Shown here: positions 8,993-59,120 of the stretch, piece by piece
How the letters are laid out: the number at the start of each line of letters is the position of its first letter
How positions within the stretch are numbered: the stretch's first letter is position 1
DNA from: Terebella lapidaria
Taxonomy: Eukaryota > Annelida > Polychaeta > Terebellida > Terebellidae
Direction of reading: 5' to 3'
NCBI GenBank assembly: GCA_949152475.1
Contig: OX424568.1
Span: forward strand, 3,509,667 to 3,573,666
DNA length: 64,000 nt
Made by a program: the position numbers and the translations under genes
Notes under the pieces: generated by a model
What the model saw: only the letters and a program-made list of their open reading frames with translations
What the model was told of the DNA's origin: nothing
Database searches by the model: none

Positions 8993-9010
8993 GTCCGGAT
9001 CTAGTTTCCC
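8967..9010 (-). promoter_or_regulatory. Programmed -1 ribosomal frameshift signal between gag and pol
   Basis: On the minus strand the last gag codons form the heptamer G_GGA_AAC (9010-9004), immediately followed by the gag stop TAG (9003-9001). Slipping back one base puts the ribosome in the open pol frame. A 5-nt spacer leads to a hairpin: CCGGACGTGGT (8998-8988) pairs with ACTACGTCCGG (8977-8967), 11 bp with one G-U, across a 10-nt loop. X_XXY_YYZ plus a stem 5-9 nt away is the classic retroviral -1 signal. The signal is read directly; its use is inferred. Confidence 0.85.
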
Positions 9011-11217: not shown

Positions 11218-11311
11218 TTTTTCGAGACGTCCTTGAGGAGCGGGCGATCCCCAGGGACTAAGGAGGCGACAACACTGTGACGGTAGGCTGCGATGGAACA
11301 CTGTCGGACTG

Positions 11312-11329
11312 ATCCTGGTCACGGCACCA
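11312..11329 (-). other. Primer-binding site, complementary to tRNA-His
   Basis: One base inside the 5' LTR, the minus strand reads TGGTGCCGTGACCAGGAT. Its complement, ATCCTGGTCACGGCACCA, is the 3' end of an animal tRNA-His with CCA (GCCGTGA acceptor stem; the Drosophila tRNA-His ends the same way). All 18 bases fit. The tRNA assignment comes from recalled sequence. Confidence 0.85.
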
Positions 11330-11330
11330 A

Positions 11331-12065
11331 TGTAAAGTTATTGACTACCGTCCGCTCTTCGGGATCCTCGAGGATAGTCCTCTCTCATCCGAGTCCTTGC
11401 GGACGCGCATCCGCTATTCCGGATCCTCGCGGCAGGGCCGCTCACCGGAGGTCGCGGCGGACACGGTAACTACTTCATCATTAACGGTAACCAGGTAACA
11501 GCCCACCCGACACTCCCAGGCCTACGGACACCGTTCAGAAACTGGTTCATCACCACGGTGTTAACTGGCGGGGCCTGGCGAGCCGCGGTCTGCCTCGGGG
11601 ACGGAACCCCGTACAGTCCGACATGCTGGCCAGAGCCTCTGTCACATGTCCCGGGAAGGGAGAGAGCTGGCGATCCACAGGGCCGAAGGCCCCCGAGTCA
11701 GCAACTCGTCTCTCCCAGCCCGGGCCTCCCCACGGAAATCGTCCCCAGGGCTCTAGGAGCCCACTACTCAGACTCAGGGAACACAAAGCTCATGGCGAGC
11801 CTCGTGTGCGTCCTAGTCTCGATCTTGGACAATCTCCTCGAACGAGTCGCTTCCAGTGTATATATAATACACCAGAAACTGCAGGGCGCACGCGAGGTTA
11901 AATCGATCCATTGTTATAGTTTACTGGAACGTAAATTACAATACGTCGCCGTGGCAACGCACGCTCGAACGGAGCATGTCAAAACAAGGCCAAGTACAGA
12001 AAGGCCACATAAATGGCTTTTATGTTTACAATCACCTGCCGCGTGCTTAGGGCAAAATCGCCACA
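11331..12065 (-). repeat. 5' LTR of the Ty3/Gypsy element
   Basis: This 735-bp LTR holds the promoter for the minus-strand transcript. It begins TGTGGCG and ends CTTTACA on that strand. I found no difference from the 3' LTR. Flanking ACAT at 12066-12069 is the target duplication. Confidence 0.95.
11858..11870 (-). promoter_or_regulatory. TATA-like box in the 5' LTR
   Basis: The minus strand reads GTATTATATATAC, an AT-rich island in a GC-rich LTR. It is the best candidate core promoter for the element. It repeats at about 1854-1866 in the 3' LTR. Confidence 0.5.
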
Positions 12066-12738
12066 ACATGTAGCAAATGATATATACTGAATATTTTTCG
12101 CGTCCTTGAATTTTCAAGGTCACAAGACAAAATGGCATATCTCTCTTATCGACTCTACAGTCTAGGAGTCAATTGTGGACATATAGGAAATGGTATATGC
12201 TGAATGAATCACTTATTATCGACTTTACAGCTTAGGAATCCATAGTGAACATACTATAAATGATATATGCTGAATATTCTCGTGACTTTGATTTGACCAA
12301 TGATCTTATTTTCGAGATCATGGGACAAAGGCTAATAATATCTGAAATATATATTGTCCGGTAACCTTTCTTAGCCTTTGGGCTAATTTTTGAAAACCTA
12401 ATCATAATTGTGACTCACTGATATATTCAGTGTCCACATGCGATTTATTGTAGATGGAAAATGGTTGCGATAGTCAAAGTGTATGAATTGTTACTATAAT
12501 TGTGATATTTCAGATATGTGCACTTTTATTATAATTGTGATATTCCAGACTTGTGAACTGTTGGTATAATTATGATGTTTTAGATGTATGATTTGTTTAT
12601 ATATTTGTGATATTTCAATTGTTTTGATTATATATAAAATTGTGATATTTCAGGTGCGTGAATTGAGGCATTTCGCCATAAAATTTTATAGTTTTGTAGG
12701 AATTTTTCTTCTTTTTGTTTTCTTTTTTTTTTTTTTTT

Positions 12739-12955
12739 TGACCTTTGACTTCATTCTAAAGGTCACAGGACAAAATTGTTATTATTGAATTTACAGCTAG
12801 GCAATCAATTGTGGATATATAAATGATATAAACTGAATATTCTCGTGACCTTGAATTTGACCAGTGACCTTATTTTCAAGTTCACGCGACAAAGTGGTTA
12901 ATATTTAAAATATAAAAACATCTATTGTCCGCTAACCTTCCTTAGCCTTTGGGTT
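12739..12955 (+). repeat. 3'-end fragment of the Helentron-like family
   Basis: One and a half core units (TGACCTTTGAC..., then CAATTGTGGATATATAAATG...) run into a diverged family end: GTCCGCTAACC and a TTAGCC...GGGTTA hairpin. A poly-T run of about 20 precedes it. Confidence 0.65.
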
Positions 12956-13948
12956 ATTTTTGCTTACTAGTTTCTCCGGTTCCCTCCCACTTTAATGACC
13001 ACCCTTAGAGTTTAGAGATTCTCTAACTCTCAAAACCCAGGCGTGTTATTTGTTAATATTATGTCATATCCCAGGCTTGTTAACTGATCAACTGAGTGAA
13101 TCGTTGATATAAGTAGAACATTTTGGTTTGACATGCAGAAAGGCAGATTCCTTTGTGTGATTGAATTTCAACTGAACATAAGATGAGACCAGTCTTGTTG
13201 GCACGTTATTATTCCAATAAACTCTAAAACTAAAACACGGTAGCTTTGCTTTCACTCGGATTTGGGATTGGAAGTTTGGAGAATGTAATGTAATAAATAT
13301 CGAATTTCTTAAAAATATTAAAATATTAAGTTTTCGTATTTAAAGATCGAGTTAGCTCCAGGTCCCGCCGACCGGTGGACATTTACGCTCCCATGTGACC
13401 GGGGCATGACGCGTTCGTGTGTAATGTAGGATTTTGTTTGAAAATAATGTTCAGCAGATACCTTTCGCGAGGTGAATCTTTTCTCCTGTCACTCAAGCAA
13501 CAAGAGGTGGTCCAATTTGCAAATGAAAGGTCGTAGTTTTTTTTTCGATATAAGATGCCATCACGCCTGACGTGTTCCCGACACGCTTTGGTTGACAAGC
13601 CATGAAGCAGGCAGTAGACAGGGCTACAGGTAGCTCACGACCGATATTTCGAATGTATTTATCGCGGAGTGCACAGTAGTAATGTCATACATAGGGGTCC
13701 GTTTATACAAATTAAATGTGCATGGAAGCATCCCTGTTCATCAAAAGAAAAGAACGATATAAGTACAAGATCCACGTATGTGAGTGGTGCTGCATGGTGT
13801 ACAGGTCTACTGTAATATTATCAACAGGCATGTGTTCGTTTTGCTTGACAAATTTATTTTTCACAGGAGAATCTTCGGTTCTGAAGTAAATGAGATCGTG
13901 TTCATTTTTCACGGATAAAAATAGGAAGTATCAAGGATAGCTGTTACC

Positions 13949-15599: not shown

Positions 15600-18107
15600 T
15601 TTCCTGATGTTATTTTCATTATTATGATTTTAGTGCCTATATATATATTTTTTAAATGTTATTTATCACGGTATACACGGTCTACATGTTGTTTATCACG
15701 GTCTTTTTTATCGCTGAATATATATCGACGTCTGCAAATGTATGAATATTAACGATACATGTAATTGCTCCAAGAATTTTGCATATTGTGAAGTATATTA
15801 CTATGCATGTATTATAATACGATGAATGACATCTTGATCGTCAGTGATTGTCGGGTATAACCAACAGGTACATTACCAGTAGGTTGAGTTAAAAAAGTTG
15901 TCCCGAAAGTTGGTCGATACAGGAACATAATGCAGCAGTGCATTTTGTTTTCGAACTGACTTTCAATGATTCCAGATGCAAGTACAAAAAAGTATGCATG
16001 TTTGTTGAGATTGTTAATATGCAGAATTGGTGGGAAGGTTCGATAAAGATGACCTGTGTCTTGATTGATCTTCACAGTTCTGGATCAACCAGAATGGTCG
16101 GTTTTCTGATTGGTCAATCAGCAACCAGTTATCCCGAAATCGCGGCACCAATTATACACATTTCGGTTTTTCTAGTGCCTTTTGATGAGAATGACCTTCA
16201 AGTTCACGTTGTTTTGTGTCACGTAATGGTTCATAATTCCTTCCTTCTCTAAGTTCTCTTGGAATAATGTTTAAGGACGAACTGCATGTAAAATCCCGAA
16301 TCTGGAATGCGCCAGTTATCCATTCACTTATACTGTAAATATAAAGGTGACAAAATCATGAACTTGCAAACATCCATTTGGCACCCACCAGAATTTACTG
16401 TGGCGACCTATACCCATCAAGGATCACCAACCGAGACTTGGTTCTTGACTAAATATGATTAATTGTCTGATAATTGTCATTTTCAAATGTCATTTTGTGA
16501 CTTATTTCTCAAAAGACAAGGTACACTCAAAACATACCTAACGGCAGGATTATTTCTTACTCCGCACAACCAGTAATGCTATTAAAGCTCAATAATGAGT
16601 TGCGCTCGGGTGCACCAAATCCGCCTATTGTATTCCTCTCGCAGAAATTCAAGTCGTATATGCATCTATTATTGAATGGTCACACAACAAAACGTACATA
16701 CCAAAAACAGCTTGTTTGTAACGCTGAAGATACGACGCCTTGTTTGTTGACGCGTGTAAAAGTAATATCTGTAATCATCAATTGTACAATTCCTGTGATA
16801 CTTTTTATAGAACAATGTCTCGGTTCATCATCCATGGGTATACATATCTCTGTTAATGAAGTTTCGGGAAGAAAGTTGGGTAGTCTTGCTGATTTTGTTA
16901 CCTTTATGTTTACATAATAAATGAATGGAACAGTGGTTCACTGCAGTGTTTAAGATTGAGTATCGAGCACGATCCACGCAATTTCAATGGTTTCATACCA
17001 CGTGCAATGATGGTTCATATCTCTGCCGTTTCATAACAAATTTACATGAAATTTGGAATATATTATCTGTATATATCTATGAAGCTGACTTGAATAAGAG
17101 ATTGAAGATTTCATTGATAACTTAGTATATAAATGGAGTTGAATGTTGCTCGAACAAATGTAACTTACGTTGCGTACACGAAGCATTACATGGTGTAGTT
17201 TCTTAACTGCAGCGAGTGCACATATCCGTGAACAATAACCTACCCTTATATTTTAAGTATCCCATCGAAAATCATGTCAAATTGATGCGCAAATGTGTAT
17301 ATCTATTGCAATCCCGCGAAAATGTCTTGTGCCGCTCATCAGTGAAGCGCTAAGTACAGATCAGCGGATTATTCGTATGGCAAATACCGTCAATGCTCAG
17401 CTGTCGAGAACGTTGTACTCAGGAGTGAGATGTTGTTGTGATTTTGGTTCTATACTGCACTTAGAAAATATTAGAGTCGCTGATGTCTTCATGTTGTTTG
17501 CGGTTGAGTTTACAATGCCAACGGATATAGACGTTATTAGTACGATTGACAATCAATTTTTTTTCGCCCAGTGTATTTTCAATGCGAATGGTACATAACA
17601 TGCTATTTTCACCATCAAACTCCCATCAAGTGTTTAGGTAAATCCCAAAACAGGCAGTAGGTTATTGTTCTATGATAGGTAAACTAACCATAGTCAAGAA
17701 ACTGTACCCTAAAACGCTGTCAGTTTTCTATGTAAGTTACATTTGATTGGCGGTGTATAACGTTCAGGATCTGTATGAATATCGACTGAGTCTTCAATAT
17801 GGCCATTGGACAAGCATTGTAGTCGTGGATATGACCTACACAACAATTTTTAGCGCAATCCATTACCAAACTGCAGAGTTATAGGCCAAACAAAACATAC
17901 CAGAATTCTGCTGATAAGGCATGGATCCTGACTGATAAGCATCCTTAACAAACCATGTACCAATAGTTGTTCTGTACGGTGACTCATATACACCAGATGG
18001 AGGAATACAATGTATGCATCACTCAGGCGAATATGAGCCACCGTAGTTCTGGAACATTGACTCTTGCCAATACTGTAAAATTCATGGAAAGAAATGGCTA
18101 ATTTTTA
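15600..18107. other. Intergenic, no gene seen
   Basis: AT-rich sequence downstream of the transporter. Open frames here are all near 100 codons or less, without domains, and look like chance. I see no clear repeat. Confidence 0.5.
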
Positions 18108-19342
18108 GGTTACCGTCCCTTTGGTCCGATAACCTACATATATATTGCCGTGGCGTTGCGTCCGTCGGCGTCGTCGTCCGTCTACATTTTTATCTTTAAC
18201 GTTTACGGTCGAATCTTTCTGAAATTTTGCACAAAAATACTTGAAAATATTTCAAGAGGGAGGTATTTTTTATTTTTTTAATTTTCGCATTTTTTTCAAA
18301 ATGATGGCCATTTTTGACGAAAAATCTGTTCAGTATTTTCTTTTCTTATTGATGCATAACACTCCTTATATATGCCTCTGTGACGTGTATAAGTTTCGTT
18401 GCCCTTGAATCGCTCGAAGTGGGCCATTTTGACCCTAACTCGGCCTAAATGGGACTTTCCCATGTTAAATTCTCCTATGCTTTATAATGGGACACATTAT
18501 CTGATTATGCTTTATATCTTACTTAATATTAAGAATAGAGACTAGGTATCAATTATGGACATATGGGAAATGATATATGCTGAATATTCTCGTGACCTTG
18601 AATTTGACCTTTGATCTAATTTTCAAGGTCATAGTACAAAGTGGCTATTATCTCGTTTATTATCGACTTCACAGCTTAGGAATTAATTGTGGACCTATAG
18701 GAAATGATACATGCTGAATATTGTCATGACCTTGAATTTGACCTCATTTTCAAGGTCAGAGCACAAAATGGCTACTATCTCGCTTATTATCGACTTTACA
18801 GCTTGGGAATCAATTTTATAGGAAATGATGTATGCCGAATATTTTGATGACCTTGAATTTGACCTCTGACCTTATTTTCAAGGTCGAAGGGCAAAATGGC
18901 TGATATTTCGCCTATTGTCGACTTTACAGCTAAGGTAATGTTTTACATGCTGAAAATTCTCATGACCTTCAACTTGACCTTAAACCTCATTTTCAAGGTG
19001 AAAGCACAAAATGGGTAATATATCGCTTATTATCGACTTCACAGATTAGAAATACATACATACACCGAATATTCTGATGACCTTGAACTTGACCTTCGAC
19101 CTTATTTTCAAGATCAGAGCACAAAATGGCTGGTATCTCGCTTAATATCAGCTTAACAGCTTAGGAATCAATTACGGACATATAGGAAATGATAGATGCC
19201 GAATATTCTGATGACCTTGTATTTGACCTTTGACCTTATTTTCAAGGTCATAGCACAAAATGGCTAATATCTCGCTTATTATCGACTTTACAGCTTAGGA
19301 ATCAATTGCGGAAATACATGAAATGATATATGCTGAATATTC
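18108..19342 (+). mobile_element. Helentron-like element, 3'-truncated
   Basis: It starts with the family's left hairpin (GGTTACC...GGTCCGATAACC, 18108-about 18133), then the GTCC/GTCG-rich stretch, the left flank, and about six diverged ~134-bp core units in which TGACCTTGAA...TTCAAGGTCA recurs. Perfect DR1 motifs occur at 18860-18872 and 19224-19236. The family 3' end is missing: at 19341 it runs abruptly into the duplicated block that follows. Confidence 0.75.
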
Positions 19343-19701
19343 TAAAATATAAACATGTGTGCCTGATAATAATATTTTCAAACATTTCAACCAGAATGTG
19401 CTTCGTAGAGCGGATTTTTTTTTTTTGGGGGGGAGGGGGGGCGGGGGTATCCAAATGTCATATCGTATTATAATTTAGAAAACTTCACCTGGGAATCAAA
19501 CGGCAATTTTCTACCGAATTTCAGTCTAAAATATAAACATGTGTGCCTGATAATAATATTTTCAAACATTTCAACCAAAATGTGCTTCGTAGAGCGGATT
19601 TTTTTTTTTTTGGGGGGGGGGGTATTCAAATGCCATATCTTATTATAATTTAGAAAACTTCACCTGGGAATCAAACGGCAATTTTCTACCGAATTTCAGT
19701 C
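19341..19701 (+). repeat. Tandem duplication, two ~180-bp units
   Basis: Unit 1 (about 19343-19526) and unit 2 (19527-19701) are nearly identical. They differ mainly in the lengths of an internal poly-T then poly-G run. They begin TAAAATATAAACATGTG and end GAATTTCAGTC. Origin unknown. Confidence 0.85.
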
Positions 19702-22664: not shown

Positions 22665-23330
22665 CTTAGCACCTTTCTGAAAAGGGCTAAGACAGGTTAC
22701 CGGACAATTTTGGTTTAAGCATCACAGGTGAGATATGACGTTGACATTTACCAATCGAGGTCAGCTTTGTGAACTTCAATGTCACCATTACGTGTGCTGT
22801 ATACACAACGTATGTACAAATATAAGCTCTATCTACAAGATTGGATAACGGACCCTGTTTTGTTCGCTCGGGATACTTAATACCGGGTATTGATTCTACG
22901 TCCATTGTATGTGGAGGCCAATTTACATATTTCATATTAGGTGTAACCTTGAGATCTAGCCTTCCATGTCGCCTGAAGTCCCTATATGTTTATAAAGCAA
23001 CCCAGCAACCCTAAGCTGTATGTGAAGGTGTAAAAGCCCCTGAGGCCAATTTACACAATTCATGTCAAACGTCACATTGATATTTAGCACTCAAGGTAAT
23101 CTGAATTTAAGTTTAAGGTCACCAAAGATGTGCTATAAGCGACCTCCTATTTGCTCATAATACAAACATACGCCCTACCTACAAACGCTTGTATGTAGAG
23201 GCCAATTTACACATTTGAGGTCCGAGTGACCTGATATTCAGCCTTCACGATGCACCATATATGACTTTCTATATGCCTGTAATACAAACCAAAGCCCTGT
23301 GTACGAGCGTTTTGGCATTATATGGCAATT
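22665..23330 (-). mobile_element. Diverged Helentron-like element, inverse orientation
   Basis: At 22665-22712 lies the reverse complement of the family's 3' end (GTCCGGTAACC, then a hairpin closing with GCTAAG). To its right the core resembles that of the copy at 49264-50030 rather than the 134-bp type: 'GGCCAATTTACAC' or close variants recur at about 22914, 23044 and 23199, with AAGGTCACC and similar half-sites between. Confidence 0.55.
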
Positions 23331-23339
23331 TGAGCATAT

Positions 23340-23780
23340 CAGATCTTTTGGAGCCTTTTGAGCCCACAAACCAGGCCTATTCAGCAATTTAAGGCACTCC
23401 ATCTTTATACCCAACGTCGAGGACCACAATTAGCATGTTCTGAACGAAAAATCTCGAAACTGATCACAGTTTTTGAGAAAACGGCCAAAAACACTAATCA
23501 AAACGCTTTTTGGGCCTATCGATCGATTCACGGCATTCCATCTTCAAACAAAATGTCAAAAACCCAATTAGCATGTTTTGAAACAAAAATCTCAAAACTG
23601 ATCATATAGTTGTTTTAAAAAATACAGCCCAAAACTGAATTTTGGGCCTTTTTGAGACTAGATTCGAGTCCTGAGGCGATTCAAGGCACTCCTTTTTTAT
23701 ACACAATGTCTAGGACCCCAATTACCATGTTTTGAAATGAATATCTCTGAACTAATAAGATATTTTTCGAGAAAACAGCC
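23340..23780. repeat. Degenerate tandem repeat, three ~150-bp units
   Basis: Three successive blocks begin near 23382, 23524 and 23678 with variants of 'TTCAAGGCACTCC'. Each contains 'AATTAGCATGTTTTGAA' and 'CTGATCA...TTTTGAGAAAACGGCC'-like segments. Confidence 0.65.
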
Positions 23781-38868: not shown

Positions 38869-39262
38869 AAAATTTGTTAGCATCGAAACATTACGTACAC
38901 AGTGCGGTTCGCCTAGACAGTAAGTAAGTAACGGCTTGCTTCGAACCATTAAAATTTGCAGAAAATGACGAGACCTTGGTGAAAACCTTCTCACCTAGGT
39001 GAAAACCTTCTCACTTAGGTGAAAACCTTCTCACCCAGGTGAAAACCTTCTCACCTAGGTGAAAACCTTCTCACTTAGGTGAAAACCTTCTCACCCAGGT
39101 GAAAACCTTCTCACCCCGGTGAATACCTTCTCAAAATTTGTTAGCATCGAAACATTACGTACACAGTGCGGTTCGCCTAGACAGTAAGTAAGTAACGCCT
39201 TGCTTCGAACCATTAAAATTTGCAGAAAATGACGAGACCTTGGTGAAAACCTTCTCACCAAG
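38869..39262 (+). repeat. Tandem duplication of ~120 bp at the minisatellite edge
   Basis: AAAATTTGTTAGCATCGAAA... through GACGAGACCTTGGTG is found at about 38869 and again at 39133, 264 bp apart, with one clear difference. The second copy is embedded in the minisatellite, so the array's left edge has been duplicated together with some units. Confidence 0.85.
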
Positions 39263-39758
39263 GTGAAAACCTTCTCACTTAGGTGAAAACCTTCTCACCC
39301 CGGTGAGAACCTTCTCACCCCGGTGAATACCTTCTCACCCTGGTGAGAACCTTCTCACCCCGGTGAAAAGCTTCTCACCCCGGTGAAAACCTTCTCACCT
39401 AGGTGAAAACCTTCTTACCCCGGTGAAAACCTCACTCCGGTGAAAACCTTCTCAACCCGGTGAAAACCTTATCACCTAGGTGAGAACCTTCTCACCTCGG
39501 TGAAAACCTTCTCACCCCGGTGAAAACCTTCTCACCTCGGTGAAAACCTTCTCACCCCATTGAAAACCTCACCTTGGTGAAAACCGTCTCACTCCAGTGA
39601 AAACCTTCTCACCTCGGTGAAAACCTTCTCACCCTGGTGAGAACTTTCTCACCCCGGTGAAAACCTTCTCACCTCGATGAAAACCTTCTCACCCTGGTGA
39701 GAACTTTCTCACCCCAGTGAAAACCTTCTCACCTCTGTGAAAACCTCTGTGAAAACCG
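38978..39758 (+). repeat. 20-bp minisatellite, forward half
   Basis: About 30 units of GGTGAAAACCTTCTCACCYN. Each unit is itself nearly palindromic (GGTGA...TCACC). Variants differ mainly in the two bases before GGTGA. Confidence 0.95.
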
Positions 39759-41064
39759 GTGTGAGAAAGTATTCACGGGGGTGAGAAGGTTTTCACCGAG
39801 GCGAGAAGGATTTCACCGGTTTGAGAAGGATTTCACTGAGGTGAGAAGGTTTTCACCGGGGTGAGAATGTTTTCACCTAGGTGAGAAGGTTTTCACTGGG
39901 GTGAGAAGGTTTTCACCGAGGTGAGAAGGTTTTCACCGGGGTGAGAAGGTTTTCACCTAGGTGAAAAGGTTTTAACGGGGTGAGAAGGTTTTCACCGGGA
40001 TGAGAAGGTTTGCATTGGGGTGAGAAGGTTCTCACCGGGGTGAGAAGGTTCTCACTAGGTTCTCACTGGGGTAAGAAGGTATTCACTGGGGTGAGAAGAA
40101 TTTCACCAGGGTGAGAAGGTTTTCACCGGGGTGAGAAGGTTTTCACCTCGGTGAAAAGGTTTTCACCGGGGTGAGAAGGTTTTCAATAGGATGGGAAGGT
40201 TTGCATCGGGGTGAGAAGGTTCTCACCGGGGTGAGAAGGTTCTCACTAGGTTCTTACCGGGGTGAGAAGGTATTCACCGGGGTGAGAAGGTTTTCACCAG
40301 GGTTAGAAGGTTTTCACCGGGGTGAGAAGGTTTTCACCAGAGTGAGAAGGTTTTCACCGAGGTGAGAAGGTTTTCACCTAGGTGAGAGGTTCCCACTGGG
40401 GTGAGAAGGTTCTCACCAGGGTGAGAAAGTTTTCACCGGGGTGAGAAAGTTTTCACCTAGGTGTGAAGGTTTTCACCGGGATGAAAATGTTTCCACCGAG
40501 GTGAGAAGGTTTTCACCGGGGTGAGAAGGTTTTCACCTAGGTGAGAAGGTTTTCACCTAGGTGAGGAGGTTTTCACCTAGATGAGAAGGTTTTCACCTAG
40601 GTGAGAAGGTTCTCACCGGGGTGAGAATGTTTTCACCGGGGTGAGAAGGTATACACCTATGTGATTAGGTTTTAACCGGAGTGAGAAGGTTTCCACTGGG
40701 GTGAGAAGGTTTTCAAATAGGTAAGAAGGTTCTCACCGGGGTGAGAAGGCTTTCACCGGGGTAAGAAAGTTTTCACCTAGGTGTGAAGGTTTTCACCGGG
40801 GTGAAAATGTTTCCATCGAGGTGAGAAAGTTTTCACCGGGGTGAGAAGGTTTTCACCGGGATGAGGTTTTCACCTAGGTGAGAAGGTTTTCACCTAGGTG
40901 AGAAGGTTTTCACCTAGGTGAGAAGGTTCTCACCGGGGTGAGAAGGTATACACCTAGGTGATTAGGTTTTCACCGGAGTGAGAAGGTTTTCACCAGGGTG
41001 AGAAGGTTCTCACCGGGATGAGAAGGTTCTCACGGGGGTGAGAAGGTTTTCACCAGGGTGAGAA
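39759..41064 (-). repeat. 20-bp minisatellite, inverted half
   Basis: About 65 units of GGTGAGAAGGTTTTCACCGG, the reverse complement of the forward half. The switch is abrupt at about 39758. Since 20 is not a multiple of 3, the array creates artefactual 20-residue repeat ORFs (for example 40171-40365); these are not genes. Confidence 0.95.
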
Positions 41065-41312
41065 AGCACAAGCTCACTCCGAAGCACCAGTTCAACACAA
41101 GCTCGCTTAGCGTGTCATCGGTAATTAATAAATGATCCCTGTCTGGCAGAAGGCGGTCCCACTGGGACCAGTGTGTCCCACTAGACCATCCGCACTTCTT
41201 CGCTGTACCTCCTCTCGGTTTTACTTGAAACTGGGTCAGGTCAAGCATCAAAATAATGGAACCGTGAAGAGATTAGCGCAGAGAACAACAATATTCTTCC
41301 GTTTTAGACAAA

Positions 41313-43270
41313 ATGCCACGTTGTTTCGAAAACCTGAACAGTTCAACATTGCAGGAAATGTGTTCATGTCGTTCTGGATCCAAAGGACAAACTCAAACGG
41401 ACAACATGATAGAACGAAAGCGGATGAGATATCTGTTATTGGCCACTTTTTGTGTATTCGTGGTTGGAGTCATTTATTTGGGATATTTTTGTCCGGAAAG
41501 AAACTGTGCATTTACCTCAAGCACTAAACCCACAGTTCTAAGTTATACGCATTCATATGACAGTGGACCCCAAAGTATAGCGAGTAGTAAAACGTTACAA
41601 ACAGCTAGATCTAGTCAAAAATACTCATTTTGTGATTGGGATGAAGTTGTAAATGATAAGACAGATTTTGAAAATTATACACATGGGAAAATCATGCATC
41701 AAAATTATTCGCATTCAACATTGAGTCATCGATATACATTTGACATTGACAATGACCATGATGTTTTGGTGTTTTTACACGTACAAAAAACTGGTGGAAC
41801 AACATTCGGTCGACATCTTGTTCATGATATTCAACTGTCGAAGCCATGTGTCTGTTACCGTAAAAGGAAGAAGTGCGACTGTGAGAATCACTATAATCAC
41901 GTGTGGCTGGTGAGCAGATATTCGACAGGTTGGCGGTGCGGTCTGCATGCCGACTTCACGGAACTCACGAGCTGTGCCAATGGAATGCTCGACAAGTTGG
42001 AAGAACGGACTCGATTTCGAAGGTAGGTGACATGGCTGATCAGTTATGCAAAGTACAGCCTACATGATTAGATGATGTTTATACAAATATATTGTCCAAT
42101 AAAATCAGAAATAGAATATCATTACCAACTCCTCACAATTTCGTTACAAAACATTCCAGACCTGTGTATTAATGATGTTTTGACAGGTTCCTGTACATAA
42201 CGATGTTACGAGACCCCTATCAGCGATACCTGAGTGAATTCAAGCACGTCCGTAGAGGTGCCACTTGGCAAGGTGCCAGACTTCAGTGTGATGGACGACA
42301 AGCCACACTTTCTGAAGTTCCTTTCTGCTACAGAGGTACAGATGTTTGAAATATTTGTTTTTCTACATTGTTACATACATGTCAAGATTCAAATACGGCT
42401 ATGAAATGCTCATTAATTTTCTAATATTCTGTAATATTTCACATAAATATATGTTAAATTTATTCATGAAAAATAAATTTTTGAACATATTGCTTTTCAA
42501 CATGTTCAATGCAAGCAATAATGTTGACGAATGTGGCTAATCTTATCACTGAACAGTGATAAAATAAAAGGAAAATAAAAGGAAACCAGAGCTTGTATTC
42601 AGTGACAGATAACGTGTGTCTGTTTGCCGCAGGTGAAGACTGGACTGATGTATCATTGGAGGAATTTATCTCGTGTCCGCACAACTTGGCTATCAACAGA
42701 CAGACCCGAATGCTCGCCAACCTCAGCCTCAGTGGCTGTTACAGTCGCGGTGTAATGTCTCAGGAACAGCGCGATTGTATCATGCTGAGGAGCGCTAAGG
42801 AAAACTTGCGTCGGTTCGCTTTCTTCGGACTCACGGAGTACCAAAGGGAGACCCAATACATGTTTGAGAGAACATTTGGCTTGCAGTTCAAAAACGACTT
42901 TTTCCAATACAACAGAACACATGCTACTGCTCTGAAAGTCACTGGAGAACAACACGCTAGAATCGTGGACATGAACATGTTGGATATAGAGTTGTATCGT
43001 TATGCAAAGACACTGTTCTTCCAGAGGCTGAGGAAGTTCCAGGAGGAAGATTTAGAATCTCAGATTAAATTATCCACAGCTGAAGTAGAGCGGAAGTACG
43101 ATCCTGATGATTATGAGGAAGGTGAAGAGAACTTTGCGGAGGATGACTTGTACAATCAAAGACTTGATAATGAGAACATCAAACTTTCCAAACGGGACGT
43201 TAAATCAAATTCGAGACATGGGTATGAATACAGTGATAAACGTAGACACAAAGTGAAACATCAATCATGA
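41313..43270 (+). CDS. HS6ST: Heparan sulfate 6-O-sulfotransferase
   Basis: Complete in three exons: 41313-42022, 42187-42335 and 42633-43270. Borders are GT-AG and phases join, giving 1,497 nt or 498 residues. It transfers sulfate from PAPS to the 6-O of glucosamine in heparan sulfate, as a type II Golgi membrane enzyme. The signal anchor is at about 40-58, after a basic N-tail; Met32 or Met38 could be the start. The 5'-phosphosulfate loop HVQKTGGTTFGRH is at 156-168. STGWRCGLHADFTELTSC closes exon 1. Exon 2 carries the 3'-phosphate motif (LRDPYQRYLSEFKH). Exon 3 has CPHNLAINRQ and the conserved FFGLTEYQ and YMFERTF blocks. The acidic C-terminal tail is variable in the family. All PAPS-site elements are present. 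The 20-bp minisatellite ends about 250 bp upstream. Confidence 0.93.
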
Positions 43271-46476: not shown

Positions 46477-46623
46477 TGTGCTCCAGACGCTCCCACGGAA
46501 CCAAGCTTTGGATGAATCCCCCATGGGAGCTCGTCTTTAGGCCTTCTGGCCAGCCTGGGATACGGAATTCGGGGACTCTCTAGTAACTGCCACACTGCGT
46601 CACGGGTACCGGATTCCCTTCAG

Positions 46624-48495
46624 TCATACGCCACCCCTCTCCCCATCGCGTTCGCATCCTACGCTCCATGGTCGGAGAAGTTTGCGGTCCTGGACGCTCT
46701 TGTGTCCGAGATGCTCCTCAAGCAAGCCACGGAGGAAGTGACTCGGAACTCTCCGGGCTTCTACAGTCGCCTGTTTGTCGTCCCCAAGCTCATGGGCGGT
46801 TGGCGACCGATTATCGACCCCAGTCCTCTGAACAAGTTCGTCTCCAAGGAGAGCTTCTCCATGGAGTGTCCACGGACGGTCCTCCTGTCTGTCCGCAGCG
46901 GGGATTGGATGATCTGGAGGATGCCTATTTTCACATCCCGATTCATCCCTCATCAAGGCCCTACCTACGTTTTCAGTGGGGCAACGTGGTGTTTCAGTTC
47001 CGCGCTCTGTGTTTTGGCCTCTCTACCGCCCCGTTCCTGTTCACCCGGGTTTTTCAGCCGGTGTCGGCCTGGGCTCATCGCAGGGGCATTCGCCTCACGA
47101 GGTATCTAGACGATTGGCTGATTACGGCCGCGGATCAGCAGACCATGGCTTCGCACACAGGGATGATTGTTCAGCTTTGTCAGCGGGTCGGTCTCGTGAT
47201 CAATTTCAAGAAGTCCGACTTGGTGCCCACCCTGCGTGTTACCTACCTCGGGATGGACATCGACACGCAGTCCTACCTGACCCGACCGATGGCGGATCGT
47301 ATTCAACAATTGAACGGTGTTCTACGGTGTTTCTCCATCGGGGTCCCTGTCGCGGCGGTAGTTTTTCTACGGCTCCTCGGTCATATGGTATTGCTGGAGA
47401 AGATTGTCCCTCGCACCCGGCTGCGCATGCGGACGGTCCAATTTCATCTCAGGGATCACTGGGATGCCGAGCAGGATCTGTCGACTCTAGTTCCGGTGGT
47501 CTCAACACTTCAGTCAGATCTCCTTTGGTGGTCCGATCCTGTCAATCTGCTGCGGGGTCATCCGATTCACGAGCTGGAGGCCAATTTTCTCCTGTTTTCC
47601 GACGCTTCTCGCCTTGGTTGGGGTACTCACCTCGGCGAAAGTCAAGTCTCCGGTCCCTGGTCAGCAGCCAATCTTCGCCATCACATCAATTGGCTAGAAC
47701 TTCGGGCGGTTTGGTTAAGCCTCCGCCATTTTCAACAGACGGTTGCCGGGTCCACAGTCCTGGCCATGACCGACAACACAACGGTTGTCGGCTGTATCAA
47801 GAACCAGGGGGGGGGGACACAGTCAAGGGAGCTAAGCAACTTGACTCGGAAGATTTTGGAGTGGGCAGAGTCGCAGGATGTCAGTCTTCTGGCCCGTCAC
47901 ATCCCGGGCTCCTTGAACACCATCGCCGACGCCCTATCTCGAAGAGGACCGGTCTCCTCGAACTGGTCTCTGAACCCCCAGATTTGCAGTCACCTGTGGC
48001 GTCTTTGGGGTCAACCTCACTTGGACCTGTTCGCCACGTTCCCGAACAATCGTCTGCCTCTCTATGTGTCCCCGTTCCCAGACCCTCATGCCTGGGTGGT
48101 CGACGCTCTCGCTCAGGATTGGTCCGTCCTTTGGGCGTACTCTTTTCCACCGTTCTCTCTGATTCCCGTGGTTCTGCAGAGGATTCGATCAAGCATGGCT
48201 CAAATCATCCTGGTAGCTCCCAATTGGCCAGCCAAGCCTTGGTTTCCGGAGCTTCTGGATCTGCTAGTGGATCTTCCGCGGTCTTTGCTGCCGATCCCAG
48301 TCTTCTGCGTCAGGGACGTCAGTTTCACGAGCATCTCGACGTCCTGCATCTTCACGCATGGAGATTATTCGGCGTTCTTTCAGAAAGGCTGGTTTTTCAA
48401 AGAACGCTGCCAAACGGATGTCCAGAACAGTTCGATCATCCTCCGAACGCTTGTATCAAGCCAAGTGGAAAGTCTTCTCTTCTTGGTGTAGTCGA
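46624..48495 (+). pseudogene. DIRS reverse transcriptase-RNase H, frameshifted
   Basis: RT begins in one frame (46702-46908, NSPGFYSRLFVVPK, GGWRPIIDPSPLN) and after a frameshift near 46908 continues in the frame ending at 48491 (DLEDAYFHIPIHPSSR, FGLSTAPFLFTR). The catalytic box is YLDDWLI. RNase H follows with FSDASRLGWG, LELRAVWLSL and MTDNTT, then IADALSR. Key residues of both domains remain, but the frameshift prevents one continuous product. The frame runs into the recombinase region with overlap. Confidence 0.8.
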
Positions 48496-48964: not shown

Positions 48965-49263
48965 GTTCGTCGCCTGGATCCTTTGCCTAGGATTCCTTGG
49001 GTCCGTCGCCCAGGATTTGCCATTGGTCTTTGGTATCTTGTGTTCCGCCGAATGGGATGTCTTTCTTTCTTGTGAGTCTCAACAAAACGAAACTCCATAT
49101 GATCTGTGCTTTCCTACTCAGAAGACACCTACTATTATCAATTTTTCCTACTGGCTCATGCTTTTGCCAAGCGAGTCAGAGAACTGCAACGGTTTCCATC
49201 TGAAGTTATGCGTCCAGATAATTGATCATAAGCATTTTCAAATGTTTGGTACCTGATATATTA

Positions 49264-50030
49264 GGTTACCGGACCTTTGGTCAGATAACCTATTGGCATG
49301 GCTTTGCGTCCGTCATCCGTCCGTCCGTCCACATTTTTAGGTTACCGGACCTATGGTCCGATAACCTATTGCCGTCACGTTACGTCCGTCCGTCCGTCCA
49401 CATTTTTATCTTTTAAGTGTACGGTCCAGTCTTTTTGAAAATTTAGAAAAAGATACCTTAAAATAATTCAAGGAGTTTTTTTTTTATTTTTTTTATTATT
49501 TTCAATTTTTTCTCAAAATGGCAATCGTTTTCATCGAAAAACGCTCAATTTTGAATTTTGGCGGCCATTCTCTCAAAAACTGTCTGATCAGTTTTTGACA
49601 TTTTTGTTTGAAAAGATTCCTCTTATATACCTTTGTGACGTGTATAAGTTTTGTTGCCCTTGAATCGCCGGTCTCCATGTGGCGGCCATTTTGAATTTTT
49701 GACGAGTCGGCGAAAAAAAAATTTTCAATGCTTGCAGATGGGGCTTATGTTTGCATTATGAACATATAGGAAGACATACATGGCACAACTAACGATGACC
49801 TTGAACTTGACCTCAGATGACCTTGAGTGCCAAATGTCTGACTCGGAATGTGTAAATTGGCGTATTATGAACAAATGCCGCACACCTACATGTAATGGTG
49901 ATATTGAAGATAACATGGATGACCTTGATTGGTAAATCTCAAGGTCATATTTTCACACTGATAACCTTGATTGGTAAATCTCAAGGTCTGTTACCTGCCA
50001 TAATCCAAACCAAACTTGCCTTTGGGCTAA
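49264..50030 (+). mobile_element. Helentron-like element with a doubled left end
   Basis: Two left ends in tandem (GGTTACCGGACC hairpins at 49264 and 49340, each followed by (GTCC)n) precede one left flank. A short core of a different subtype follows (TGACCTTGATTGGTAAATCTCAAGG; related to 22665-23330). It ends with a 3' hairpin piece TTTGGGCTAA at 50030. Only 10 bp separate it from the next element. Confidence 0.75.
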
Positions 50031-50040
50031 CTTATTTTTA

Positions 50041-52640
50041 GGTTACCGGACCTTTGGTCCGATAACCTATTGCCGTGGCGTTGCGTCCGTCGTCCGTCGT
50101 CCGTCGTCCGGCGTCCGTCCGTCCGTCCACATTTTTATCATTAAAGTTTACAGGCGAATATTTCTGAAATTTTGCACAAAAATACCTAAAAATATTTCCA
50201 GGAAAGGTTTTTTTTAGTTTTTCGATTTTCACATTTTTTTCAAAATGGCGGCCGTTTTCGTCGAAAAATGGCCAATTTTGGACTTTGACGGTCGTTTTCT
50301 CAAAATCTGTTCAGTAACTTTTTTTCTTATTGATGCATGACACTCCTGTGACATGTATAAATTTCGTTGCCCTTGAATCGCTCGAAGTGGGCCATTTTGG
50401 GCCCAAACTCTGCCCAAATGGGACTTTCCCATGTTAAATTCTCCTATGCTTTATAATGGGACACATTAAAGCCTAATATCTCACTTAATATTGAGATTAG
50501 AGACTAGGAATCAATTGTGGACATATAGGAAATGATATATGCTGAATATTGTCGTGACCTTGAATTTGACCTCTGACTTTGGTTTCAAGGTCAGAGCGGC
50601 CGTTTTCGTCGAAAAATGGCCAATTTTGGACTTCGACGGTCGTTTTCTCAAAATCTGTTCAGTAACTTTTTTTTCTTATTGATGAAAAACACTCCTCATA
50701 TGTACCCCTGTGACATGTATAAATTTCGTTGCGCTTGAATCGCTTGAAGTGGGCCATTTTGGGCCCAAACTCGGCCCAAATGTGACTTTCCCATGTTAAA
50801 TTTTCCTATGCATTATAATGGCACACATTAAGCCTAATATCTCACTTAATATTGAAATTAGAGACTAGGAATGAATTGTGGACATATAGGAAATGATATA
50901 TGCTGAATATTCTTGTGACCTTGAATTTGACTTTTGACCTCATTTTCAAGGTCACAGGACAAAATGGCTAATATCTCGCTTATTATCGACTTTACAGCTT
51001 AGGAATCAGTTGTGAACATATTGGAAATGATATATGCTGAATATTCTTGTGACCTTGAATTTGACCTTTGACCTCATTTTCAAGGTCACATGACAAAATG
51101 GCTAATATCTCGCTTATTATCGACTTTACAGCTTAGGAATCAATTGTGAACATATAGGAAATGATATATGCTGAATATTCTCGTGGCCTTGAATTTGACC
51201 TTTGACCTCATTTCCAAGGTCGCAGGACAAAATTGCTAATATCTCGCTTATTATCGACTTTACAGCTTAGGAATCAATTGTGAACATATAAGAAATGATA
51301 TATGCTGAATATTCTCGTGGCCTTGAATTTGACCTTTGACCTCATTTCCAAGGTCGCAGGACAAAATTGCTAATATCTCGCTTATTATCGACTTTACAGC
51401 TTAGGAATCAATTGTGGACATATAGGGAATGATATATGCCGAACATTGTCGTGACCTTGAATTTGACCTTTGACCTCGGGTTCAAGGTCACATTACAAAA
51501 TGGCTAATATCTCGCTTATTATCGACTTTACAGCTTAGGAATCAATTGTGAACATATAGGAAATGATTTATGCTGAATATTCTCGTGACCTTGAATTTGA
51601 CCTTTGACCTCATTTTCAAGGTCACAGGACGACATGGCTAATATCTCGCTTATTATTGACTTTACAGCTTAGGAATCAATTGTGAACATATAGGAAATGA
51701 TATATGCTGAATATTCTCGTGACCTTGAATTTGACCTTTGACCTCATTTCCAAGGTCACAGGACAAAATTGATAATATCTCGCTTATTATCGACTTTACA
51801 GCTTAGGAATCAATTGTGAACATATAGGAAATGATATATGCTGAATATTCTCGTGACCTTGAATTTGACCTTTGACCTCATTTTCAAGGTCACAGGACAA
51901 AATGGCCAATATCTTGCTTATTTTCGACTTTACAGCTTAGGAATCAATTGTGAACATATAGGAAATGATATATGCTGAATATTCTCGTGACCTTGAATTT
52001 GACTTTGACCTCATTTTCAAGGTGAACAGGACAAAATGGCTAATATCTTGCTTATTATCGACTTTACAGCTTAGGAATCAATTGTGAACATATAGGAAAT
52101 GATATATTCTGAATATTTTCATGACCTTGAATATGACTTTCACCTAATTTTCAAGGTCAGTCATTTTATTTTCAAGGTCAGAATACAAAATGGCTTATAT
52201 CTCGCTTATTATCGAATTTACAGCTTTGGAGTCCATAGTGAACATATAGGAAATGATGTATGCTGAATATTTTGGTGATCTAGAATTTGACCTTTGATCC
52301 CATTTTCAAGGTCAGAGAACAAAATTGCTAATATGTCGCTTATTATCAACTTTAAAGCTTAGGAATCAATTGCGAATATAGAGGAAATGATATATGCTGA
52401 ATTTTTTCATGACTTTGAACTTGAACTTTGACCTAATTTTCGTTGTTACATCACAGAATGGCTAATATCTAACTTATTATCGACTCTATAGCTTAGGAAT
52501 TTATCGTGGACAAGTGATATATTTGTTGAAAATTTCATGGCCTTGAATTTAAATCAGTGACTTTATTTTCAAGGTCACTGGACAAAAGGCTATATCTAAA
52601 ATGTATATTGTCCGGTAACCTTTCTTAGCCCTTGGGCTAA
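50041..52640 (+). mobile_element. Helentron-like (pearl-type) element, full length
   Basis: It starts with a hairpin (GGTTACCGGACC TTT GGTCCGATAACC), then (GTC)n/(GTCC)n to about 50128, a ~350-bp left flank (partly repeated at 50595-50880), a tandem core (about 50500-52600), and the 3' end GTCCGGTAACC (52610-52620) with the hairpin TTAGCCCTTGGGCTAA (52625-52640). The first and last 11 bp are inverted: GGTTACCGGAC and GTCCGGTAACC. No coding region. A 5' hairpin, tetranucleotide microsatellite, tandem core and 3' hairpin is the layout described for oyster pearl elements and other non-autonomous Helentrons. The class assignment is inference. Confidence 0.75.
50500..52600 (+). repeat. 134-bp tandem core array with nuclear-receptor-like motifs
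   Basis: About 15 units. The central ones are nearly identical and exactly 134 bp apart: the TGACCTTTGACCT motif starts at 51062, 51196, 51330, 51464, 51598, 51732 and 51866; diverged versions are at 50928 and 52000. Each unit has TGACCTTGAA and TTCAAGGTCA as an inverted pair around that motif, then CTTATTATCGACTTTACAGC and GGAAATGATATATGCTGAAT. Units diverge towards the right end. Spacing does not keep a reading frame and I see no ORF. Confidence 0.95.
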
Positions 52641-53291
52641 TTTTTTTTCTTCTGCTGGAACATCCCATACCCCTAGCAACGACAGTTACTGATAATTGAA
52701 TCTCAACAATTTCGATCTCAGTGAAAAAGTTTTCTGCCTCAAAATGTTTTTCATGCGATCAAAACAATTTAATGTATAGTCAAATATCAAGTACATGTTC
52801 ATGTTTCAGTCACCACGTACAAGAAATGAAGCATAACACTCCGGAAGTACAATCTATATTTCCTCTGTTCATGCGACTGATGCCAGACAGTATTCCCGGG
52901 AACCACGGCGTCATGCCGTGACACGAGGATAAACAACCGGACACTGATCATGACGTGGTGGTAGCGGGCTGCATGCTTCCTTCCTGATCGGTCTGCCGAG
53001 GTTTGACTGTCTCTCGGCACGCCACATACATATCTATATCACACCCGTGCACCTCCCCGCAACTGTCACTCCAAATCCGAGCAGTAGGACGAAAAAAAGC
53101 AGTAGCCTTTTGTGTTACATTGATTGAACGATCGAGTCTTTTTCGCCAGGCAAAGGAGCACACAAAAGGCCTTTGTCAATGAACGTAAACGATGTTATTG
53201 ACTGAGGCGCATGATATCCAATGAACTGCAGCACTTGACGTATCAATTATTTACGGCTATGAACACCTCTGGCGTGTGTTTTCATTACCAG
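52641..53291. repeat. Duplicated block 1 (pair with 59121-59736)
   Basis: This ~640-bp block downstream of a Helentron-like 3' end matches 59121-59736 closely. It contains a short minus frame (52948-53163, 71 codons, MCSFAWRK...) also present in the other copy, where small indels shift part of it. I see no known domain. Confidence 0.8.
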
Positions 53292-54100: not shown

Positions 54101-54536
54101 ACCTAGAAAACTACCACGAGGGTCTTCCTGAACCTGCACGTTATCTCTGCCTTTTTGTTAATCTGAAACTGGGGCAAGTGGTGGTTGAGGGCTACGCCAG
54201 TGTTCGGTACTTTGATCACAAACTATCCTCAGTTTAACCTCCTTCGTGGGAAGATACACCCCCAAACTGAGCAAATAATGTAATCCTCTTGGAAGACTTC
54301 TCGCCTGTGTCTTCCCAGGTACTCTCAGTGTCCTGGGTGTGTTCAGTCTGACACCTCCCAGCTTGATGTCCAGCTAGTCTCTTGTTGAAAAACTTCGGAG
54401 TCTTATTAACAGTCAGTAATATTCTGGTTGCATCATATGTCCAACTGCGCCATAAAATCCTCCTGGACCAGCAGTTGTGTCGAGATGGTGCTGGTCTTGA
54501 TGATCCAGTGGATCATGAAGACCATCAAGACTTCAC

Positions 54537-54718
54537 AGCTCAGGAATCAATTGTGGACATATAGGAAGTGATATATGCTGAATAATTTCGTGACCTTGAA
54601 TTTGACCTTTGAACTCATTTTCATGGTCAGAGCACAAAATGGTTAATATCTCGCTGATTATCGACTTTACAGGCAATTACAGCTTAGGAATCAATTGTGA
54701 ACCTATAGGAAATGATAA
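54537..54718 (+). repeat. Helentron-like core fragment
   Basis: About one and a third 134-bp-type units (CAATTGTGGACATATAGG..., TGACCTTTGAAC..., CTTTACAG...). It ends in GATAAGATAAGATAA, which runs into a different A-rich tail. Confidence 0.75.
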
Positions 54719-55297: not shown

Positions 55298-55679
55298 TTC
55301 ACCGACAGGGTGACATAATGAATATATACTATGAAGATATGAAAGATATATACAACTAGACGCTTCCGGTCGCCTACGACCGCTTGGGTGTATCCCCCGT
55401 AGCCCTATCATCTCTGTTGCCCCAAATATATCACTGTCAATTGTGAAAAACTAGAGTAAGGGCTAAAAAAGATTACCAGAGAAATGTTAAATCTCAAGTC
55501 ACAACTGTATTCTTTTCCCCACCAAAATTGCTGCACTGATTTTCCGAGGTTATTGAAGGTCGAATTCAAAATCACCACTGAAATCTCTTTATATGAATTT
55601 CCATTCGACATGTTTGATAAAATAACGAAAATACAGATAGATCAATCTTTTCACCTATTTATATTTCAACTCAGAATAT

Positions 55680-56580
55680 TTTACAAACTTGGTTCCGAGT
55701 TGAAATTCAAAGTAAAATTTGACCAAAAATGCATTTCAAGATGACAAAATTGGAGCTAGATTGAACTTCTCACCATAAGTTATATTTCGATCCATAATAC
55801 ATGTATGTGCCAAACATGGTTTCAAGTTGAAATTCAAAGTAAAAGGTAATCAAAACTGCATTTCAAGATGACAAAATTGGAGCCAGATCAAACTTTTCGT
55901 CATGAGCTATATTTTAACTCATAATACCTGCCCAACTTGATTTCAAGTTGAAATTCAAACTAAAAGTTTACCAAAACTGCATTTTAAGATGACGAAATTG
56001 GACCCAGATCAAACTTTTCGCCATGAGTTATATTTCAACTCATAATATGTGCCAAACTTGGTATTAAGTTGAAATTCAATGTAAAAGTTGACCAAAACTG
56101 CATTTCAAGATGACGAAATTGGAGCCAGATAGAACTTTTCGTCATAAGTTATATTTTAACTCATAATATGTGCCAAACTTGGTTTCAAGTTGAAATTCAA
56201 GCTAAAAGTTTACCAAAACTGCATTTCAAGATGAAGAAATTGGAGCCAGATCGAACTTTCCATCATAAGTTATATTTTAACTCATAATATGTGCCAAACT
56301 TGGTTTCAAGTTGAAATTCAAACTAAAAATTGACCAAAACTGCATTTCAAGATGACGAAAATGGAGCCAAATCGAACTTTTCACCATAAGTTATATTTCG
56401 ACTCATAATATGTGCCAAACATGCTTTCAAGTTGAAATTCAAAGTAAAAGTTGACCAAAACTGCATTTCAAGATGACAAAATTGGAGCCAGATCGAATTT
56501 TTCACCATAAGTTATATTTTAACTCATAATTTGAGCCAAACATGGTCTCAAGTTGAAATTCAAAGTAAAAATTGATCAAT
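55680..56580. repeat. ~120-bp satellite-like tandem repeat
   Basis: About seven units. ACTGCATTTCAAGATGACGA recurs every ~120 bp (near 55854, 55974, 56094, 56214, 56335, 56456), with TTTCAAGTTGAAATTCAA (itself palindromic) between. Confidence 0.9.
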
Positions 56581-56584
56581 GTTT

Positions 56585-57475
56585 TCATAAAAAGCTATTG
56601 TGATCAATAATAGACTTAACTAGCAAAAAAATAATGTTGACTTATTTGGTCACAGCCATAAAATCTCTACTGGACAAAGCCTTCACCTTGTTGAGCCCAA
56701 TAATAAATATTTCTTGTCTTAACTATTTTCATTGTCGTCACTTATAGACTTAACATGTAAAAATAAAGTTAACTTATTCGGTTACACCCAGAAATTTCTA
56801 CCGGACAAAACCTTAACCTTGTTGAGCTCAATAATAATTGTTTCTCATCTTAACTATTTTTATTGAGGTCAATAATAGACTTAACTAGCAAAAAAAATGT
56901 TAACTTATTTGGTTACAGACATAAAATGTCTACTGGACAGAATCTTTACCTTGTTGAGCCCAATGATAAATATTTCTTGTCTTAACTATTTTTATTGTAG
57001 TCAATAATAGACTAAACTAGTAAAAATAATGTTAACTTATTCAGTACACCCATGAAATCTGTACTGGACATACTTTCACCTTGTTGAGCTTAATAATAAA
57101 TATTTCTCATCTTAACTATTTTTATTGTGGTCAATAATAGACTTAACTATTTTTATTGTGGTCAATAATAGACTTAACTAGTGAAAATAATGTTAACTTA
57201 TTCAGTTACACCAATTAAATTTGTACTGGACAAAACATTTACCTTGTTGAGGTTAATAATAAATATTTCTTGTCTTAACTATTTTTATTGTGGTCAATAA
57301 TAGACTTAACTATTAAAAATAATGTTAACTTATTCAGTTACACCCATGAAATTTGTACTGGACAAAACCTTTACCTTGTTGAGCTTAATAATAAACGTTT
57401 CTCGTCTTAACTATTTTTATTGTGGACAATAATAGACTTAACTAATAGAACTAATGTTAACTTATTCAGTAATAT
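56585..57475. repeat. ~130-bp tandem repeat, different family
   Basis: About seven units. CTTAACTATTTTTATTG recurs near 56850, 56981, 57111, 57273 and 57406, with ACTGGACAAAACCTT and CTTGTTGAGC in each. It directly abuts the previous array but shares no sequence with it. Confidence 0.9.
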
Positions 57476-58082: not shown

Positions 58083-58138
58083 GCGGACGCGGACACGGAC
58101 GCGGACGCGGACGCGGGCGCGGACGCGGACGCGGACGA
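58083..58138 (+). repeat. (GCGGAC)n hexanucleotide run
   Basis: About nine units of GCGGAC with small variants in otherwise AT-rich DNA. A short hairpin, ATCCGCCGAAC...GTTCGGGGGAT, follows at about 58157-58180. Confidence 0.9.
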
Positions 58139-58349
58139 CGAAGCCAAATCCATAGTATCCGCCGAACTTTGTTCGGGGGATACAATGATAACGACAAAAA
58201 TGCAGAACATTGTGCAGAACATTAGTTTTAGGCGGGGTACTTTATGGAAAATCAAAACGTGTCAGTGATAGTTAAACTACTAGTATATACATTCATATTT
58301 TCAACAACGTAAGGCAGGGTACTCCATGACATATCATATCGCGTCAACG

Positions 58350-59120
58350 ATATTTGAAATGATATATGCTGCACATTGTTGTGACCTTGAATTTGACCTT
58401 TGACTTTATTTTCAAGGTCAGAGCACAAAATGACTAATATATTGTTCATTATCGACTCTACAGTTTGGAAATAGGTTGTGTACTTGTGGAAAATTATATA
58501 TGCTGAGTATTCTCATGACCTTGAACTTGACCTTTGACCTTATTTTCAAGATCGGAGCACAAAATGGCTAATATCTTGTTTGTTATCAACTTAACGGCTT
58601 GGGAATCAATTGTGAACATACATGAAATAATATATGGTGAATATTGTTATGACCTTGAATTTGACCTTTGACCTCATTTTTCCTTCATGATCAGCCAGTT
58701 CGGAGTGTTTCTAGGTCAGGTCAAGTGGTATAAAGTGACGCGGTGAACCCAAAGTAAACAAAGTATTTAGTATTGTACAAGCGAAATTGAGTAATGCGTT
58801 GATGACAGTGACTCGACAATGGTAGCGTGACAGCATGGATTTGCTATGTTCATACCACTTGACCCTGACCCAATCCCACTGACCTAACCTGAAAACATTT
58901 CCGAACTCACGTATGGGAGCTGTATAAAGTAAACTCGTAAAATACTTCAAGATAGACCTCAAATATTGGCAGTATCAAATGGGAAATCATATTGCAGTGT
59001 CAATGGTAATCTTTGATTTCACCTTCAATGACCATGAAAGGTCAATATGAATGTTGATGAAAAATTTAATGGTTTAAAACTGAACATTTTTCCGGTAACC
59101 TCTTTAAGCACTTGGGCTAA
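58350..59120 (+). mobile_element. Helentron-like element, 5'-truncated, with MITE inserted
   Basis: About four diverged core units, perfect DR1 motifs at 58528-58540 and 58662-58674, and the 3' end TCCGGTAACC with CTTGGGCTAA closing at 59120. MITE A copy 2 (58698-58906) interrupts the core. Confidence 0.75.
58698..58906. mobile_element. MITE A, copy 2
   Basis: Ends GTTCGGAGTGTTTCTAGGTC and GAAAACATTTCCGAAC. It shares inverted ends and the CAGTGACTCGACAATGGTAG core with 27316-27536. Confidence 0.8.

Follow-up and report, generated by a model that had tools for sequence, protein, structure and literature searches.

Non-autonomous Helentrons with satellite-like central repeats, the HINEs, have been described in Crassostrea gigas (PMC7492417). 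As outlined in that source, Cg_HINE elements possess a 5' subterminal inverted repeat (subTIR) of 11-12 bp with a complementary inverted repeat a few bases off, followed by a GTCC/GTCY-type microsatellite, a spacer, central tandem repeats, a 3' subTIR and a palindrome. The element located at 50040-52640 of the window analyzed here (a stretch of 64,000 nucleotides from the annelid Terebella lapidaria) resembles the described layout of Cg_HINE in each of these respects. Similarly, the Pearl elements of bivalves (as given in PMC7492417) and Drosophila DINE-1 (PMC4067079) are like this element in having subTIRs, a 3' palindrome and, in some of them, central repeats. Pearl arrays are described as comprising at most six repeats of ~160 bp each (PMC7492417), whereas the unit is here of 134 bp and present in ~13 copies.

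It is already known that mobile repeats can carry sites for receptors or other proteins. Alu elements with HNF4alpha sites (PMC3252374) or DR2 sites (PMC1785376) are, as here, a mobile repeat spreading nuclear-receptor motifs, and the ISX helitron of Drosophila miranda (PMC4384637) is, as here, of Helitron type with many copies of a protein-binding motif. MSL sites and putative transcription-factor sites are likewise attributed to DINE-1-like elements (PMC4067079). According to these sources, binding has been demonstrated for Alu, which is a SINE, and binding, selection and function for ISX, whereas the present element is Helentron-like and its receptor sites are motif matches. Among the titles and abstracts of the open-access papers listed, none described nuclear-receptor motifs in the central repeats of a Helentron. 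The main text of PMC7492417 contains neither "nuclear receptor" nor "transcription factor"; the former term is also absent from the main texts of PMC4067079 and PMC12628747, and the latter from PMC11136912.

A Helentron-type element and its relatives in the window

The array of 134-bp units is most likely the ordinary core of a HINE, its receptor-like motifs being largely incidental. The element is organized as follows:

50040..50052, plus strand: 5' subTIR AGGTTACCGGACC, exact match, of which 12 bp recur in reverse complement at the 3' subTIR
50056..50068, plus strand: inverted repeat complementary to the 5' subTIR, 3 bp from it, with 1 mismatch
50084..50128, plus strand: CGTC/CGTCCGT microsatellite (TRF)
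50248..50957, plus strand: tandem duplicate of ~350-360 bp, comprising leader and first unit (blastn, sequence)
50470..50596, plus strand: first (boundary) unit, without perfect DR1 (unit alignment)
50834..52597, plus strand: central tandem array, 134-bp period, 13.1 copies (TRF, unit alignment)
52485..52597, plus strand: last (boundary) unit, without DR1 (unit alignment)
52609..52621, plus strand: 3' subTIR TGTCCGGTAACCT (sequence comparison)
52625..52640, plus strand: 3' palindrome TTAGCCCTTGGGCTAA, then a T-run (sequence, fold)

A HINE is recognized by subTIRs that are identical over 11 bp or more at its two ends, and AGGTTACCGGAC is present here at 50040 and, as its reverse complement, at 52609-52621. 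The other hallmarks of HINEs are an inverted repeat complementary to the nearby 5' subTIR (here 50056-50068), a short microsatellite in the left flank (50084-50128), a palindrome beyond the 3' subTIR (TTAGCCCTTGGGCTAA) and a lack of coding capacity; of the 53 listed reading frames, all of 120 aa or longer, none falls within 50040-52640. The succession of subTIR, inverted repeat, microsatellite, central repeats, 3' subTIR and palindrome is that reported for HINEs (PMC7492417; PMC4067079), for which insertion into T-rich sequence is also described; T-runs flank both ends of the present element. The 5' subTIR and its adjacent inverted repeat could form a stem (DNA fold of -10.6 kcal/mol, equalled in 0 of 200 shuffles), and the fold of the palindrome is modest (equalled in 18 of 200). 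A canonical Helitron, which has a 5' TC and a 3' CTRR with a palindrome ~11 bp upstream, does not fit: the 5' end consists of a T-run and then AGGTTACC, and CTAA is present only within the palindrome itself. No Rfam match was obtained across 49200-52700.

Further copies and relatives are dispersed in the window:

12058..12391, plus strand: 3' part of a copy (units and tail), without DR1
12737..12961, plus strand: 3' part of a copy (units and tail), without perfect DR1
18107..19343, plus strand: a second family member that retains its 5' end and whose array contains a single perfect DR1, at 19224
49339..50036, plus strand: neighbouring related element, different core with TGACCTTGATTGGTAAATCTCAAGGTCA, without DR1; leader 70% identical, 3' limit set by eye
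54529..54717, plus strand: isolated units, DR1 at one mismatch
58343..58680, plus strand: three-unit fragment with two perfect DR1s (58528, 58662)

By blastn, the leader of the 50040 element recurs at 18107 (75% identity), 951 (80%) and 49339 (70%), and its tail at 12323, 12915 and 59088 as well as, on the minus strand, at 22708 and weakly (E 2e-4) at 55483. The 3' end of the second element (18107..19343) was not found. A related Helentron-like subfamily with a different core is represented at 22685-23700 (minus strand) and at 49339-50036. The two fragments in 12058-12961, neither with a perfect DR1, are located ~1-2 kb upstream of a sugar-transporter (MFS) frame (13925-15520), and a GCGGAC hexamer repeat (9.2 copies, 58083-58137, TRF) is located just ahead of another element fragment.

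The window contains several other repeats and genes. TRF identified two adjoining 20-bp minisatellite arrays (38.8 and 66.7 copies) at 38973-41064, the units of one looking nearly like the reverse complement of those of the other, so that orientation seems to switch at ~39750, and adjoining tandem arrays of 121-bp and ~132-bp units at 55639-57470, which by eye are unrelated to the 134-bp unit. A Gypsy-type LTR retrotransposon with long open frames, the first of which contains reverse transcriptase, RNase H and integrase, occupies 4694-11337 on the minus strand, and its pol domain has a 99% identical protein in a public contig. Upstream of the element cluster is a retroelement reverse transcriptase frame (RVT_1, 46587-48491), and two frames at 41277-43270 match Sulfotransfer_2 and probably belong to a single sulfotransferase gene or pseudogene.

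Receptor-like motifs and homogenization of the array

We take TGACCTTTGACCT to be a DR1 and TCAAGGTCA to be a site of the ERR/FTZ-F1 type. Each 134-bp unit contains TGACCT three times and its inverted copy once, the DR1 being formed by two neighbouring copies 1 bp apart, and the unit consensus includes the flanking extended half-sites TGACCTTGA and TCAAGGTCA. RGKTCA-based definitions of such direct repeats have been published (PMC1785376). By exact matching, TGACCTTTGACCT is present at 10 positions of the window:

51062, 51196, 51330, 51464, 51598, 51732 and 51866: seven exact DR1 sites, separated by six intervals of exactly 134 bp each and spanning 51062..51878, plus strand
19224, 58528 and 58662: three further exact copies

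The original prediction mentioned seven perfect DR1s at 134-bp spacing and these three, and also counted 18860 among the DR1s; this last site is TGACCTCTGACCT, with two perfect half-sites but a spacer base unlike that of TGACCTTTGACCT. The extended half-sites described on either side of the DR1 do belong to the unit consensus; both are exact in 4 of the 9 perfect-DR1 units in which the whole block is readable. When up to 2 mismatches to TGACCTTTGACCT are allowed, 29 matches are present in the window versus a shuffle mean of 1.78, and 29 was reached in 0 of 100 shuffles. RGGTCA-N-RGGTCA pairs number 11 within the HINE-derived intervals (6,970 bp, with limits drawn by hand) and 0 within the other 57,030 bp, and direct repeats of RGGTCA with a 6-bp spacer number 17 and 0, respectively; one DR0 and one DR8 were found outside these intervals and one DR4 inside. 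Since DR1 and 6-bp-spacer pairs are confined to the HINE-derived intervals, the motif concentration is real and is a property of the repeat family. Together with the HINE ends and the dispersed copies, this confinement bears out the initial proposal that the repeat is part of a family of mobile elements and that the motif has spread along with it.

Outside the window, TGACCTTGAATTTGACCT was found at 6 loci of a viral contig collection. As the 134-bp unit matched 0 of these 6 loci by blastn, they are chance word matches. Other sequence patterns of the repeat had 0 matches in the viral contigs, and a scan of a genome contig collection for repeat patterns also gave 0 matches.

Identity to the 134-bp unit is 92.5-97.8% for units 50991-51929 of the main array and lower for the boundary units. 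The perfect DR1 is missing from the first units at 18534, 50496 and 50857 (the latter two being a duplicate pair) and from the last units at 12224, 12790 and 52485. By eye, the first units of different loci are alike, and so are the last units. Because the seven perfect DR1s are located in one homogenized run, they are not seven independent survivals, which rules out reading them as seven independent conservations. This pattern of units and the ~350-bp tandem duplicate, whose halves (50248-50596 and 50596-50957) are 90% identical by blastn, are what would be expected if expansion and homogenization had proceeded from the middle.

Retention of the DR1 and of the half-sites

Seven array regions were aligned to the periodic unit, giving 34 rows of which 9 come from the homogenized core; as two of these regions lie in the main element, they represent at most six insertions. 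Fragments of fewer than 20 bases are absent from the unit tables, as are the related elements located at 951-1326, 22.7 kb and 49.7 kb. For each word, the count of intact copies was compared with an expectation that takes account of the divergence and base composition of the individual copies, and the word was given its rank within the 134 circular placements (1 = most conserved) in six treatments. These retention tests concern few loci in one 64-kb window, with copies partly related by descent. In an earlier test based on blastn local alignments, the ranks of the DR1 columns in four subsets were 88-117 of 134, with 1 again the most conserved; since the ends of local alignments bias conservation ranks, the periodic alignment was used instead.

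By the test proposed in the original prediction, a comparison with neighbouring bases, better retention of the DR1 as such is not supported. Of 20 non-core copies, 3 have the 13-mer intact versus 3.1 expected (rank 38, gapped copies scored as broken), and over the six treatments its rank among the 134 placements lies between 15 and 38 (z between -0.05 and 1.78), at most a little better than the middle of the ranking. Its columns rank 14-35 of 134 when gaps are ignored and 90-105 when they are counted, and distinct substitution events per locus are not clearly fewer in them than in composition-matched columns (P 0.18). The half-site that completes the DR1 exhibits no excess retention (z 0.13); taken as separate words, the two half-sites of the DR1 rank 4-9 of 134 over the six treatments. 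A relaxed DR1 (RGKTCA-N-RGKTCA) is present in 5 of 14 ungapped copies, where 2.1 would be expected (P 0.036); for ungapped copies outside the main array, the figures are 4 of 10 and 1.2 (P 0.020). This ungapped-copy test drops gapped copies, takes copies as independent and gave very small P values, and the calibrated placements were preferred. The DR1 is not clearly kept and decays at roughly the background rate; it is probably without function.

The half-sites behave differently when considered as a set. In non-core copies, with gapped copies scored as broken, the four AGGTCA words are intact in 43 of 78 cases versus 31.1 expected (rank 1). Of 19 copies, 11 retain the first extended half-site (rank 3) and 9 the second (rank 7), versus 5.3 expected for each. 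The set ranks 1 of 134 in all six treatments and in 8 of 8 leave-one-locus-out runs (the run with none dropped included), and its columns have fewer locus-level substitution events than composition-matched columns (39 events, P 0.0044). The rank of 1 for the set and of 4-9 for the DR1 half-sites mean that not all of the block looks neutral. The excess is uneven, the z values of the single half-sites, from first to fourth, being 2.76, 2.01, 0.13 and 0.95. It also depends on the loci included: the z of the set is 2.91 with all loci, 1.55 without locus B and 1.66 without locus E, and among 4000 sets of four randomly drawn 6-mers, the number that do as well is 30 with none dropped, 142 without B and 156 without E. 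Finally, the half-site columns rank 35-37 of 134 when deleted columns are counted singly and 1-3 when gaps are ignored. The retention signal is weak, and the seven array regions behind it represent no more than six insertions. Retention of the half-sites is supported in part: the set ranks first, mostly through its first two members, which may be under some constraint, but the third and fourth contribute little and the signal weakens without B or E.

Origin of the array and of the half-site signal

The array is very probably a HINE core in which the DR1, present in the family consensus, would have been multiplied with the array and would have decayed afterwards at about the ordinary rate. The Rep/helicase of an autonomous Helentron located elsewhere in the genome would recognize the 5' subTIR with its inverted repeat and the 3' subTIR with the palindrome, and rolling-circle replication would have carried the element into T-rich sites. 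The central units would later have expanded and become homogenized through slippage, unequal exchange or conversion.

The better retention of the half-sites could be accounted for in several ways. There is a little less than an even chance that it is an artefact of small numbers, of conversion or slippage between TGACCT words, or of alignment quality. The small number of insertions and the dependence of its strength on loci B and E are consistent with this, and short direct repeats permit slippage, as illustrated by a 7-bp loss in unit 18668; the set nevertheless keeps its first rank whichever locus is dropped and whether gapped copies are scored as broken or omitted. It is unlikely that the AGGTCA half-sites are real host ERR/FTZ-F1, HNF4/COUP-TF or RXR sites through whose binding the element would gain or be kept, for instance in open germ-line chromatin. 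The first rank of the set in all treatments, its rarity among random sets, the deficit of substitution events and the first extended half-site, where retention is clearest, argue for such sites, as do the precedents cited above for Alu (HNF4 and DR2), ISX (MSL) and DINE-1-like elements. However, the low z of the third and fourth words, the fall of z without B or E, the rank of 35-37 and the non-independence of copies within an array argue against them. Beside the fourth AGGTCA, moreover, TTCAAG and ATTTTC are among the best-kept words and the core is not, the opposite of what receptor contact predicts. The divergent neighbour at 49.8 kb also has TGACCTTGAA-C-TTGACCT in common with the unit, but the bases it shares include non-motif ones, so that common descent suffices to account for this likeness.

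The extended half-sites are also the arms of an inverted repeat (TGTGACCTTGAA ... TTCAAGGTCACA) with the DR1 in its loop, and it is doubtful, at best, that they act as a hairpin or cruciform aiding replication, strand exchange or array expansion. In the unit, 51048-51092 can form a 12-bp stem (-12 kcal/mol, equalled in 0 of 200 shuffles), the arms rank 1-6 of 134 in the six treatments, and the related element retains the same arms around a different loop (TGACCTTGA-10 bp-TCAAGGTCA at 49920). On the other side, among 258 ungapped arm-pair cells, 229 show no change, a change on one side breaks 28, and 1 differs on both sides without pairing; the absence of any compensatory change among the 29 changed arm pairs argues against a hairpin under pairing selection. 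In addition, the arms of the minus-strand relative (~22760) are mutated (by eye), and the fold of the whole 134-bp unit is not unusually good (z -1.63).

Compared with an ordinary HINE core, it appears improbable that a Helentron-type element selectively keeps the half-site cluster, mainly TGACCTTGAA-TTGACC, and so would spread candidate receptor docking sites or use a receptor to enter open germ-line chromatin, the perfect DR1 being a by-product. If the half-sites proved to be kept genome-wide, this family would be another mobile element, beside Alu and ISX, that spreads protein-binding sites, in this case in tandem and for nuclear receptors. If they are not kept, the locus would serve as a warning that seven perfect motifs in one homogenized array amount to about one event.
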